Origin: Gluconobacter cerinus
GTDB lineage: Bacteria > Pseudomonadota > Alphaproteobacteria > Acetobacterales > Acetobacteraceae
Assembly: GCF_002723935.1 (NCBI RefSeq)
Contig: NZ_BEWM01000005.1
Location: 248,001 to 312,000, forward strand
DNA: 64,000 bases
Direction of reading: 5' to 3'
The notes beneath the pieces are model-generated. The model ran no database searches. It saw nothing but the letters and a program-made list of their open reading frames with translations, and was not told where the DNA came from. The translations under genes were made by a program, and so were the position numbers. Shown in pieces: positions 33,408 to 55,436 of this stretch; the first letter of the stretch is position 1, and the number at the start of each line of letters is the position of its first letter.

Positions 33408-33441
33408 AAAAAAGCCGCCGGTTATTCCGGCGGCTTTTTTT
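33408..33441. terminator. Bidirectional intrinsic terminator between fructokinase and pssA
   Basis: GCCGCCGG (33414-33421), loop TTATT, CCGGCGGC, flanked by A6 on the left and T7 on the right, so it can serve both converging genes. Confidence 0.93.
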
Positions 33442-50982: not shown

Positions 50983-50997
50983 CGATCTCAGTCTTTC

Positions 50998-51037
50998 AAA
51001 AAAGCCCCTGCCAGCGTCTGCTGACAGGGGCTTTTTT
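50998..51037. terminator. Bidirectional terminator between sufE and the Cys-repeat gene
   Basis: AAAAAAGCCCCTG and CAGGGGCTTTTTT pair across a 14-base loop; the A and T runs on both sides make it work in both directions. Confidence 0.9.
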
Positions 51038-51045
51038 GTTTGAGC

Positions 51046-52129: not shown

Positions 52130-54556
52130 TCACTTCTGATCAGCGAGGCTGTAAGCAATCAGGTCGTCGCCCATGACGGTCGGGAAGGAGTTGTGGCCAC
52201 CAGCATAGGTGACAACGAACTGCTTTCCATTGACCGCATAGGTCATTGGCGTGGCTTGCGCGCCAGCTGGGAGGCGATCCTGCCACAGGGTCTTACCTGT
52301 CGTCAGGTCGTAGGCGCGGATGTAGTAGTCCATCGTGCCCGTCAGGAAGCCAACGTTGCCAGCCGTGGAGAGCGGGCCGCCGAGGCTCGGGACGCCGATC
52401 TTGATCGGAGGCAGCGGGATGGGCAGGGAACTGCCGTGCATGGAGTCACGGAGCGTACCGTTACGATGCTGCCAGACCACCTTGTTGGTGCGCAGATCGA
52501 TACCGGCCACATAACCCCAGGGCGGCGTACGGCAAGGCATCTTGATGCCAAGCGGCAGCAGGACCGGGTCCATGAACGGATGCAGATCAACAGCATAGGG
52601 GATGCCGTAGTTCGGCTGCAGACCGGTTTCGCCACCAGAACCCTTTGCGTTCGGTTCCGGCCATAGCGGGTTACCCGGACCACGGGGTACCAGACGGGAA
52701 ACGAACGGCAGAGAGATCGGGTTGGCAAAGGCCACCTGACGCTGCGGATCGACAGCCAGACCACCCCATTCGAACATGCCAAGGTCGCCCGGGAAGATCA
52801 GAGATCCCTGGAGTGACGGCGGCGTGAACGGACCTTCATAGCGAAGCGAGTGGAAGTAGATGCTGCAGAACATCTGATCGAAGATTGTGCCACCCCAGAT
52901 ATCGGAATCGGAGAGGGCTGCCTTCGGACGCAGGCTCAGCTGAGACATCGGCTGCGTTGGGCTGGTGTGATCGCCCGGTGCGGCGCCACCAGGAACCGGT
53001 GTTTCCGGAGCCGGGACGACTTCCTTGCCCGTACGACGGTCAAGAACGAAAATGTCGCCAGTCTTCGTCGGAACGTAGATGGACGGAACAATCGTGCCGT
53101 CTTTCGACGTGATGTCTACGAGGCTCGGCTGGGACGGGGCGTCCATGTCCCACAGGTCATGGTGAACGGTCTGGTAATACCAGGCCAGCTTACCCGTCTC
53201 TGCGTTCAGCGCGACGATACCCGGAGCAAAGCGCTCGGATTCCTTGGTGCGGTAACCGCCCCACTGATCCGGCGTGCCTACGCCCATTGGAATGTAAACG
53301 AGGTTCAGGTTCTTGTCGTAGGACGACACGATCCAGGAGTTTGGAGAGTTCGGATGGAAGACCGGATGATCCGGGTCTGGCATCTGGTTCGGGTCAGGGT
53401 TGGATGCGTCAAACACCCAGACGCGCTTGCCGGTATAAACGTCAAATGCCTGCGTTGCGCCCGATGCCTGCTTGATGGAGCCGTTATCGGTGATGGCGCT
53501 GTTGGCAATGATCAGCTTGTCGGTAATGACCGGCGGAGACGTCGGTTCATACATGCCCGGCGTGGTGTAAGGCTGGTTCGGCAGACGCAGATCCAGTTCA
53601 CCGTCGTTTCCGAAGCCAGAGCACTTCTGCCCGGTTTCAGCATCGACTTCGACAAGGCGACCGTCATTGACGGGCAGCACGATACGCTTGGCGCAATCGG
53701 TTGGAGCCGGATTGCCATCGCTGTCCGTGGCATCCGCCGGTGTCTGGTGGAAGCTCACGCCACGGCACGTCAGATGCTGGAAGCCTGGGTTAATCTGCAG
53801 ATGCGGATCGAACGTCCATTTGACGTGACCCGTTGCAGCATCAACGGCCCAGAGCTTCTGGTGCAGCGAGCACAGGTAAAGCGTGTTGTCGAATTCAATC
53901 GGTGTGACTTCGTTGGTTGCTTCGCCTGGATCATTCGGTCCCATCAGATCCTTGGTGTGGATGTGCCATGCCACCTTGAGGTTCTGAACGTTGGACGAGT
54001 TGATCTGCTTCAGCGGAGACCAGCGATCGCCAGCCTGCGTGCGGCCATAGGCATGCCATTCGCTGTCTGGAACGTTATCTGCGTCAACCGGTGCTGCGTT
54101 GGTCAGCTCTGTTGGCAGATTGCCGCTAATGTCGTGCGGGTCTGTGAAAAGACCGGCAGCAAGCACCAGAACGGCGAGACCGACGGAGCCTGCCAGGGGA
54201 AGGACAGATGCGCGTGTGCCGCCGATCTGGCGGGACACGAACGGGATCAGCAGCCAGATGCCAAGAATGATCACGATGTCGGAGCGGGGAACCAGTGCCC
54301 AGAGGTCGAGACCGACCACGGAGAGTTCCCATACGACCGTCGCGAACACTACAGCAGCAAAGAGCCACAGTGCGGCCGGGTTACGGCGCCATGCGAGGAA
54401 GGCAGTCGCAAGAAGTGCGATGCCGAGGAGGAGATAATACAGGGGGCCGCCGAGGGAAACGGCCCATGCGCCGCCCACGGTAAGGATCGCGCCGCAAAGC
54501 GCGAAGACCGCGGCCGTGATCAGGGCCCAGAGCCCTGGCCGGGATGATGTGCTCAT
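52130..54556 (-). CDS. gcd: Membrane-bound PQQ-dependent glucose dehydrogenase
   Basis: Oxidises glucose to gluconolactone on the periplasmic face and passes electrons to ubiquinone. 808 residues from the ATG at 54556 (MSTSSRPGLWALITAAVFAL), the length of the Gluconobacter enzyme. Five N-terminal transmembrane helices (about 5-140) precede the eight-bladed PQQ propeller. The beginning of the propeller is SEWHAYGRTQAGDRWSPL. The bacterial quinoprotein repeats GxGTPDQWGG and DTGKLAWYYQTVHHDLWD are present, as is the C-terminal TYAGGHNSFPT segment, whose His region affects substrate range in the known enzyme. From memory it is near 90 percent identical to the G. oxydans enzyme; this identity was not computed. 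Single-gene transcript with its own terminator. Confidence 0.97.
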   Translation of the reverse strand: MSTSSRPGLWALITAAVFALCGAILTVGGAWAVSLGGPLYYLLLGIALLATAFLAWRRNPAALWLFAAVVFATVVWELSVVGLDLWALVPRSDIVIILGIWLLIPFVSRQIGGTRASVLPLAGSVGLAVLVLAAGLFTDPHDISGNLPTELTNAAPVDADNVPDSEWHAYGRTQAGDRWSPLKQINSSNVQNLKVAWHIHTKDLMGPNDPGEATNEVTPIEFDNTLYLCSLHQKLWAVDAATGHVKWTFDPHLQINPGFQHLTCRGVSFHQTPADATDSDGNPAPTDCAKRIVLPVNDGRLVEVDAETGQKCSGFGNDGELDLRLPNQPYTTPGMYEPTSPPVITDKLIIANSAITDNGSIKQASGATQAFDVYTGKRVWVFDASNPDPNQMPDPDHPVFHPNSPNSWIVSSYDKNLNLVYIPMGVGTPDQWGGYRTKESERFAPGIVALNAETGKLAWYYQTVHHDLWDMDAPSQPSLVDITSKDGTIVPSIYVPTKTGDIFVLDRRTGKEVVPAPETPVPGGAAPGDHTSPTQPMSQLSLRPKAALSDSDIWGGTIFDQMFCSIYFHSLRYEGPFTPPSLQGSLIFPGDLGMFEWGGLAVDPQRQVAFANPISLPFVSRLVPRGPGNPLWPEPNAKGSGGETGLQPNYGIPYAVDLHPFMDPVLLPLGIKMPCRTPPWGYVAGIDLRTNKVVWQHRNGTLRDSMHGSSLPIPLPPIKIGVPSLGGPLSTAGNVGFLTGTMDYYIRAYDLTTGKTLWQDRLPAGAQATPMTYAVNGKQFVVTYAGGHNSFPTVMGDDLIAYSLADQK

Positions 54557-54651
54557 GATGTTCCTAGAGCTGTTATTTGGTGCAGCACTTGACCTTCGGA
54601 CAAACACATAGAAGCGCGTTAAGAATCAAGATGTCAGATGGTTCATGTTGC

Positions 54652-54685
54652 TCACGTCACTGTGAGCGAGATCACAGTGACGTGA
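54652..54685. promoter_or_regulatory. Perfect 14-bp inverted repeat with a CRP-type core
   Basis: TCACGTCACTGTGA, six bases (GCGAGA), TCACAGTGACGTGA. The inner part is TGTGA-N6-TCACA, an exact match to the CRP consensus. It lies about 97 bases from the gcd start and 176 bases from the rpmI start. A hairpin in RNA or a binding site for a CRP/FNR-family regulator are both possible. Confidence 0.7.
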
Positions 54686-54782
54686 CTTGAACAAAGGGGC
54701 GTCTTTTGCTTGCGCGTTAAAGAAAATAAAGTTCTTGGCGGAATCAGTCCGATGGGATAAGGCAGCCGCTCCGTGTACGCGT

Positions 54783-54833
54783 CCGGGCCATAAGTGGCAT
54801 GCCCGGCCGTGCAGAGTCCCACTCCGGTGGGAC
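54783..54833 (+). promoter_or_regulatory. Two hairpins in the rpmI leader
   Basis: CCGGGC (54783-54788) pairs with GCCCGG (54801-54806), with an alternative inner GCCA-TAAG-TGGC stem; then GTCCCAC (54816-54822), loop TCCG, GTGGGAC (54827-54833). They end 27 bases before the rpmI ATG. Such a leader is a candidate for autoregulation by L20, but the L20 binding site itself was not recognised. Confidence 0.5.
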
Positions 54834-54860: not shown

Positions 54861-55061
54861 ATGCCCAAGATGAAGACGAAGTCGTCGGTCAAGAAGCGGT
54901 TCAAGATCACCGCGACCGGCAAGGTAATGTGCGGCCCAGGCAACAAGCGCCACGGCCTTATCAACCGCCCGCAGAAGATGAAGCGCACCAACCGTGGTCC
55001 TCAGACCATGACGGATATGGACGCAAAGACCATCAAGCAGTGGGCGCCCTACGGGCTCTAA
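54861..55061 (+). CDS. rpmI: 50S ribosomal protein L35
   Basis: 66 residues, starting [20 protein letters not shown], with GGGAGA before the ATG and the L35 features [18 protein letters not shown] near the middle. Paired with rplT 15 bases later. infC, the usual first gene of this operon, is not in front here. Confidence 0.96.
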
Positions 55062-55076
55062 GGGAGATTAAGGTAC

Positions 55077-55436
55077 ATGGCACGTGTTAAGCGGGGCGTA
55101 ACGACGCACGCCCGTCACAAGAAAGTTCTCGATCTCGCCAAGGGTTACCGCGGCCGTTCGTCTACGAACTACCGTATTGCTCTCGAGCGCGTTGAGAAGG
55201 CGCTGCGCTATGCGTATCGCGACCGTCGCAACAAGAAGCGTGATTTCCGCGCTCTGTGGATCCAGCGTATCAACGCTGCTGTCCGTGAGCACGGTCTGAC
55301 GTACAGCAAGTTCATCAATGGCCTGGACAAGGCTGGCATCGAGATTGACCGTAAGGTCCTTGCTGCTATTGCTTTCGACGACGCAGCTGCTTTCGCAGAA
55401 ATCGTCAAGAAGGCACAGGCCGCTCTCGCAGCCTGA
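55077..55436 (+). CDS. rplT: 50S ribosomal protein L20
   Basis: 119 residues with the L20 signature: [50 protein letters not shown], and the C-terminal globular part [17 protein letters not shown]. It assembles early on 23S rRNA and, in other bacteria, represses its own operon. A terminator follows before pheS. Confidence 0.97.

Follow-up and report, generated by a model that had tools for sequence, protein, structure and literature searches.

A conserved tandem pair of TCAC-N6-GTGA boxes between the glucose dehydrogenase gene and the rpmI operon of Gluconobacter as a probable operator for the response regulator CenR

Which regulator might be served by the palindrome that separates the divergent genes for membrane-bound glucose dehydrogenase and ribosomal protein L35 in Gluconobacter cerinus? 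The palindrome occupies 34 bp (positions 54652–54685) of the window, i.e., the 64,000-nucleotide stretch of contig NZ_BEWM01000005.1 analysed here. It reads TCACGTCACTGTGA-GCGAGA-TCACAGTGACGTGA and consists of two 14-nt arms (54652–54665 and 54672–54685) that are 100% complementary and separated by a 6-nt spacer. On its left lies gdh (52130–54556, minus strand; ATG at 54556), an ORF encoding the PQQ-dependent membrane-bound glucose dehydrogenase of 808 amino acids; on its right lie rpmI (54864–55061, plus strand; ATG at 54864) encoding L35 of 65 amino acids and rplT (55077–55436, plus strand) encoding L20 of 119 amino acids, the latter named by sequence and position. A first-pass annotation had described this location, the perfect 14-bp arms and an exact CRP-type core, TGTGA-N6-TCACA, at 54661–54676, all of which we confirm.

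The same annotation considered a chance origin of a perfect 14-bp repeat with this core unlikely. Perfect inverted repeats with arms of at least 14 bp and loops of 0–20 occur four times in the window, the palindrome included, and were absent from eight first-order Markov windows; the three others have arms of 14–16 bp and are located at 964–998, 33408–33440 and 50997–51038. The core alone is weak evidence because, at up to one mismatch, it is seen once in the 64-kb window where 1.9 occurrences are expected by chance. In its exact form it is found at seven places in the 3.58-Mb genome (reversed-pattern control, 0). A stronger statement can be made for a pattern of four half-sites, TCAC-N6-GTGA-N6-TCAC-N6-GTGA, which at up to two mismatches has a single match in the window, the palindrome itself (exact), with 0.01 expected. 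These half-sites are spaced by 10 bp and therefore face roughly the same side of the helix. The 34-mer is present as a single copy in the genome even if three mismatches are allowed, and the dispersed element that the annotation had named as a possible refutation is thereby ruled out. A plasmid search with the gdh-rpmI intergenic DNA yielded no match.

The intergenic DNA was matched in 28 of 60 genomes including that of the window strain (G030 and G034 in the rpmI leader only), and 26 genomes of the genus were aligned, oriented on rpmI. Among the 21 closest genomes (L009–L029), the half-site columns (TCAC/GTGA; n = 16) are 99.4% identical, the inner six bases 96% in the gdh-proximal box and 80% in the rpmI-proximal box, and the flanks 91% and 85%; the junction between the boxes is the least conserved part (63%), yet its length of 6 bp is kept in 21 of 21. 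Given that the half-sites are kept and the junction varies, the conserved object is a pair of 14-bp TCAC-N6-GTGA boxes whose centres are 20 bp apart. Box A (TCACGTCACTGTGA; 54652–54665) is the gdh-proximal one, whose TCAC and GTGA are preserved in all 26 aligned genomes; box C (TCACAGTGACGTGA; 54672–54685) is proximal to rpmI and, in the window, the reverse complement of box A. The junction (54666–54671) is free in sequence and fixed in length, and the CRP-like core straddles it. Inner bases of box C differ between clades, and an exact reverse complement of box A is found there in four of the 26 genomes; judged from the alignment, arms of 14 bp that match perfectly are a trait of one clade. 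What the first-pass annotation had put forward as a site between the mGDH gene and the rpmI operon is hence a conserved one rather than a dispersed repeat.

The exact tandem pattern occurs once per genome, and always between gdh and rpmI, in 19 of the 26 genus genomes (reversed control, 0). It is missing from G001, G005, G006, G007, G009, G012 and G022: box C of G006 and G007 has a missing or altered base close to its end, and box A alone is kept in G005 and in four Neokomagataea-like genomes, G009 being one of these. Across 397 genomes of the family there were nine matches, eight among the 14 genus genomes drawn and one among the 383 others; this sole tandem TCAC-N6-GTGA pair outside the genus (L194 of G284) is located near a contig end. 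A single box is present upstream of the gdh –35 element in Bombella pluederhausensis (L043), whose gdh and rpmI genes are divergent, and likewise in two genomes that belong to a single genus and resemble each other in their upstream DNA (L157 and L160). Box A is probably the older unit of the pair.

A homologue of gdh was detected at E≤1e-100 in 43 of 150 family genomes. Aligned upstream regions point to a –35 element of gdh at 54624–54629 (minus strand; TTGATT, TTGACC in many relatives) and a weak –10 element at about 54601–54606 (minus strand), and aligned motifs to a presumed rpmI promoter, TTGGCG-17 bp-TAAGGC, at 54735–54763 (plus strand). Based on these presumed starts, the palindrome would be situated upstream of both –35 elements, at a distance of 22 bp for gdh and 49 bp for rpmI. 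The annotation had named the rpmI promoter as the strong promoter P264, and rightly so: in the accessible portions of the literature P264 (PGOX0264) is the L35 promoter, GOX0265 is mGDH, and P264 is in use as a strong constitutive promoter. The L35 protein encoded in the window and its counterpart in G. albidus NBRC 3250 have the same sequence. Strong conservation is also seen between the presumed gdh –35 element and box A (54630–54651; GATGTCAGAAGGTTCAT..TTGC in relatives), a segment which may hold another site.

As a side observation, the rpmI leader contains a hairpin with the sequence GGCATGCC (54775–54812, plus strand). In a survey of 41 loci from alphaproteobacteria, a hairpin with GGCATGCC was present 40–126 nt upstream of rpmI at 39, the two without it being L062 and L067; this survey took in loci within L039–L118, the remaining ones (mostly sphingomonads) lying outside its scope. 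The outer stems differ in sequence yet pair (GAACCGCC/GGCGGTTC, AAACCG/CGGTTT and GACACG/CGTGTC in 37 aligned rows including the window). RNAalifold predicted four pairs, one of them covarying, z-scores of single sequences were mostly modest, and a comparison of the leader with Rfam gave no match over the gathering score. The GGCATGCC hairpin is possibly an L20/L35 leader. The arms of a second leader hairpin (54816–54833; GTCCCAC-TCCG-GTGGGAC) seem, by eye, to co-vary within Gluconobacter.

Boxes of the TCAC-N6-GTGA type have been described for CenK-CenR of Sinorhizobium meliloti, with the consensus AgTCAC--C--cGTgAct (PMC9561847; this and the other papers are cited from the parts accessible to us). 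In this two-component system of alphaproteobacteria, which is concerned with the cell envelope, CenR is the response regulator; its gene is essential in S. meliloti and in Rhodobacter. The S. meliloti protein shifts DNA carrying AGTCAC-N6-GTGACT, for which the authors describe an apparent specificity for the repeat, and mutation of either box arm lowers the activity of the srlA promoter (PMC9561847). A related S. meliloti site, AGTCACATCACTGTGACG, has 14 positions in common with box A and matches it at all but one of them. In Rhodobacter sphaeroides, CenR-bound promoters give TGA-N8-TGA, and a good part of the 31 sites listed are close to T(C/G)AC-N6-GTGA (PMC9275681). When all 31 were used to build a matrix, box C ranked first and box A third among 127,972 window positions (ranks 2 and 4–6 being unrelated positions), and the CRP-like junction reading ranked 14,027. 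The best rank of the operator was 6 with 30 column-shuffled matrices and 32 with the reversed matrix, the latter being what a near-palindromic motif leads one to expect. Scores of 12.9–14.7 were obtained for the single boxes of L043, L157, L160 and the Neokomagataea-like genomes; for the best score in each of 297 random 300-bp pieces of the window, the 95th percentile is 10.8 and the 99th 14.7. In gdh promoters outside the Gluconobacter/Neokomagataea/Bombella-like group no box was present at a shared position; far upstream, a box of 12.7 bits is found in L171 and one of 14.9 bits in L172, and L163 has one of 11.4.

Ten regulators of the OmpR family are encoded in the genome at E≤1e-8. The candidate CenR orthologue among them is a protein of 244 amino acids (L202/L205), singled out by an identity gap, by its distribution and by published residues. 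Nine of the ten were compared with NCBIfam (all except L199); none of the models listed (the best 25 of 96 families) fits the candidate well, its best score being 154.7 at a cut-off of 300, and a PDB search returned general OmpR-family relatives (best 60 of 281). The candidate was searched in 22 genomes. Among the matches listed, its best match is 67–96% identical in eight of nine other Acetobacteraceae (46% in Roseococcus) and 55–60% identical in all seven genomes of Rhizobiales, Rhodobacterales and Caulobacter, the next matches there reaching at most 41%; those in all five sphingomonads are 34–40% identical and thus at the level of paralogues. This is the distribution reported for CenR in the available part of PMC9275681, namely presence in Rhizobiales, Rhodobacterales and the Caulobacter order, and none in Sphingomonadales. 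Residues D55, L95 and E159 of S. meliloti CenR are present in the three Rhizobiales orthologues of the candidate, and the published CenR residues D51 and D56 in its three Rhodobacterales orthologues. The latter are preceded by ACACGNNNNCGTGAG, as is Rhodobacter cenR, and have masses of 25.7–25.9 kDa as compared with the 28.2 kDa given for RSP_0847 (PMC9275681). Judged by these comparisons, the genome encodes a CenR orthologue. Elsewhere in the family, a CenR-like protein of Roseococcus (L221) has a well-kept C-terminal domain and a receiver domain devoid of most of the acidic pocket and of some length, and a single genome of Belnapia (G440) encodes at least five CenR-like proteins (65–72% identity).

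Taken together, the anatomy, the conservation, the matrix match and the orthologue, which are established at the level of sequence, lead us to propose that CenR uses the palindrome as a tandem operator, a reading to which we assign a probability of roughly 0.7. Counting against it are the unrelated window positions at ranks 2 and 4–6, the height of the 99th percentile in the 300-bp pieces, the gdh promoters of other genera, the mass given for RSP_0847, the 22-bp gap to the presumed gdh –35 element and the tolQ and cenR promoters described below.

Further boxes of this type were sought elsewhere. The pattern TCACG-N5-GTGA gave 19 strand-hits in the genome of the window strain, corresponding to 17 places of which two are boxes A and C; since the control gave 13, these hits are mostly due to chance, and a regulon defined in this way was rejected. 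The stricter pattern TCACG-N4-Y-GTGA occurs at 11 places in this genome, four in G. albidus and eight in G. morbifer. A blastn comparison of all strict boxes away from gdh (nine from the window strain; eight from G. albidus and G. morbifer) returned one group common to the three species, located where a gene for a di-haem cytochrome c peroxidase begins (PF03150, PF14376; L137, 1501–1514; also L265 and L275). TCAC and GTGA of this box are kept, its inner bases differ, and it follows a conserved TTGACT by 22–23 bp. The box and the longest peroxidase ORF (TTG start) overlap in the window strain and G. albidus, and the ORF of G. morbifer begins about 20 bp after it, which places the box near the presumed start; a single shared site is, however, a small sample. 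With regard to tolQ and cenR, which are CenR targets in Rhodobacter (PMC9275681), no genus-wide conserved box was detected upstream of tolQ at 26 loci. One locus (L254) has a box of 12.6 bits at –132, four others (L257–L260) share one of 9.1–9.3 bits at –73, and tolQ follows ybgC in the window strain. The cenR promoter of this strain contains no strong box, the best having 6.7 bits (10.4 in G. morbifer).

The first-pass annotation had favoured a CRP/FNR-family protein on TGTGA-N6-TCACA, which, bound as a dimer, would link sugar oxidation to translation. This sequence is the E. coli CRP site, it is exact in the window, and its half-sites GTGA and TCAC are conserved. The core as such, however, is exact in only five of the 26 aligned genomes, its centre coincides with the least conserved part of the operator, and the junction is lost in aligned relatives with a single box. 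The six other exact cores in the genome all overlap ORFs, and a regulon based on them was likewise rejected. A CRP-type protein is characterized by cAMP binding and a RETVGR helix. A scan of the genome with PF13545 revealed no clear protein of this type: among 43 mostly weak matches the only clear family gene is L184 (70.1 bits), whose N-terminal cysteine cluster and ETVSR recognition helix we take to be of the FNR type, and a 164-aa ORF (L185) is borderline (27.2 bits; cut-off 27). In line with this, the accessible reports state that Gluconobacter appears to lack a CRP gene (PMC8102297) and that the protein nearest to CRP is GOX0974, the FNR-type GoxR (PMC9429829). A CRP/FNR site is therefore not borne out, and we consider it very improbable; a textbook-looking CRP site can evidently arise as a by-product of two other boxes.

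It is harder still to credit that the palindrome acts as a DNA cruciform or RNA hairpin. As single-stranded DNA the window sequence folds with –15.4 kcal/mol, which none of 200 shuffles equalled, and two other representatives also fold better than their own shuffles (z –3.3 and –2.3). In four of seven representatives, however, the fold is hardly better than in the shuffled sequences (z –0.4 to –1.2), pairing of the large repeat is limited to 10 of 14 positions or fewer in 21 of the 26 genomes, and the palindrome is upstream of both presumed starts. An intrinsic terminator was rejected because the one terminator-like site in the scanned stretch is elsewhere than at 54652–54685. The remaining alternative, in which the tandem operator serves some other regulator whose box is CenR-like, would be compatible with the finding that neither of the two known targets, tolQ and cenR, is shared in Gluconobacter and with the fact that in S. 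meliloti the promoter of an ArsR-family gene carries one of the boxes (PMC9561847). Against it stand the EMSA and genetic data by which boxes of this type are linked to CenR in S. meliloti (PMC9561847), as well as the presence of a CenR orthologue with a near-identical C-terminal helix; on balance, we regard it as unlikely.

Returning to CenR, we infer its binding, cooperativity, sign of regulation and signal as follows. Two CenR dimers would sit side by side on boxes A and C, whose centres would be located about 65 and 85 bp, respectively, upstream of the presumed gdh start; from the start presumed for rpmI they would be about 112 and 92 bp away, again on its upstream side. Published CenR boxes adjoin the –35 element where CenR is an activator, and those near the start are thought to repress. 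By analogy, CenR may activate mainly gdh from upstream of its –35 element and would repress the peroxidase gene from the single box near the presumed start. CenR possibly also aids rpmI, an effect which is less certain because P264 serves for strong, constitutive expression. The trigger would be CenK signalling the state of the envelope.

It is tempting, if tentative, to speculate that the Gluconobacter lineage recruited CenKR by doubling an ancestral single box, such that gdh and the L35/L20 genes are driven jointly and the peroxidase is held down, the whole acting as a periplasmic redox switch. One cooperative, two-sided enhancer would then serve both gdh and the L35/L20 ribosomal operon. 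If true, periplasmic glucose oxidation would be tied to the alphaproteobacterial envelope system, industrial strains would gain a concrete handle, and the widely used strong ‘constitutive’ P264 may, according to which fragment is chosen, include a site for a regulator in its upstream portion. The accessible Gluconobacter literature names no regulator for membrane-bound glucose dehydrogenase. CenR boxes as such are already known; the doubled box and mGDH/L35 as targets were not met in the portions of the literature available to us. PMC9275681 names, in its accessible part, neither Gluconobacter nor Acetobacteraceae, and a loosely matched literature search on CenR with acetic acid bacteria, which does not show absence from print, found no mention of CenR or CenK.

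Three known systems invite comparison, for which we again rely on the accessible parts of the published work. With the E. coli CRP site the junction shares the core letters in the window strain; it differs in that the core is not conserved and CRP is reported absent from Gluconobacter. The CenR motif of R. sphaeroides, termed a direct repeat by its authors, yields from its 31 sites the matrix that ranks the two boxes first and third; it differs in its targets tolQ and cenR (PMC9275681), which Gluconobacter does not share. The srlA box of S. meliloti has in common with the Gluconobacter boxes the TCAC-N6-GTGA pattern, a C in the spacer and an activator position, presumed in Gluconobacter, upstream of –35 (PMC9561847). 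It is, however, a single box adjoining the –35 element of a salt/oxidative-stress gene, whereas in Gluconobacter two boxes 20 bp apart are placed between divergent genes, and 22 bp separate the palindrome from the downstream –35 element presumed for gdh, which in the published cases directly adjoins the box.
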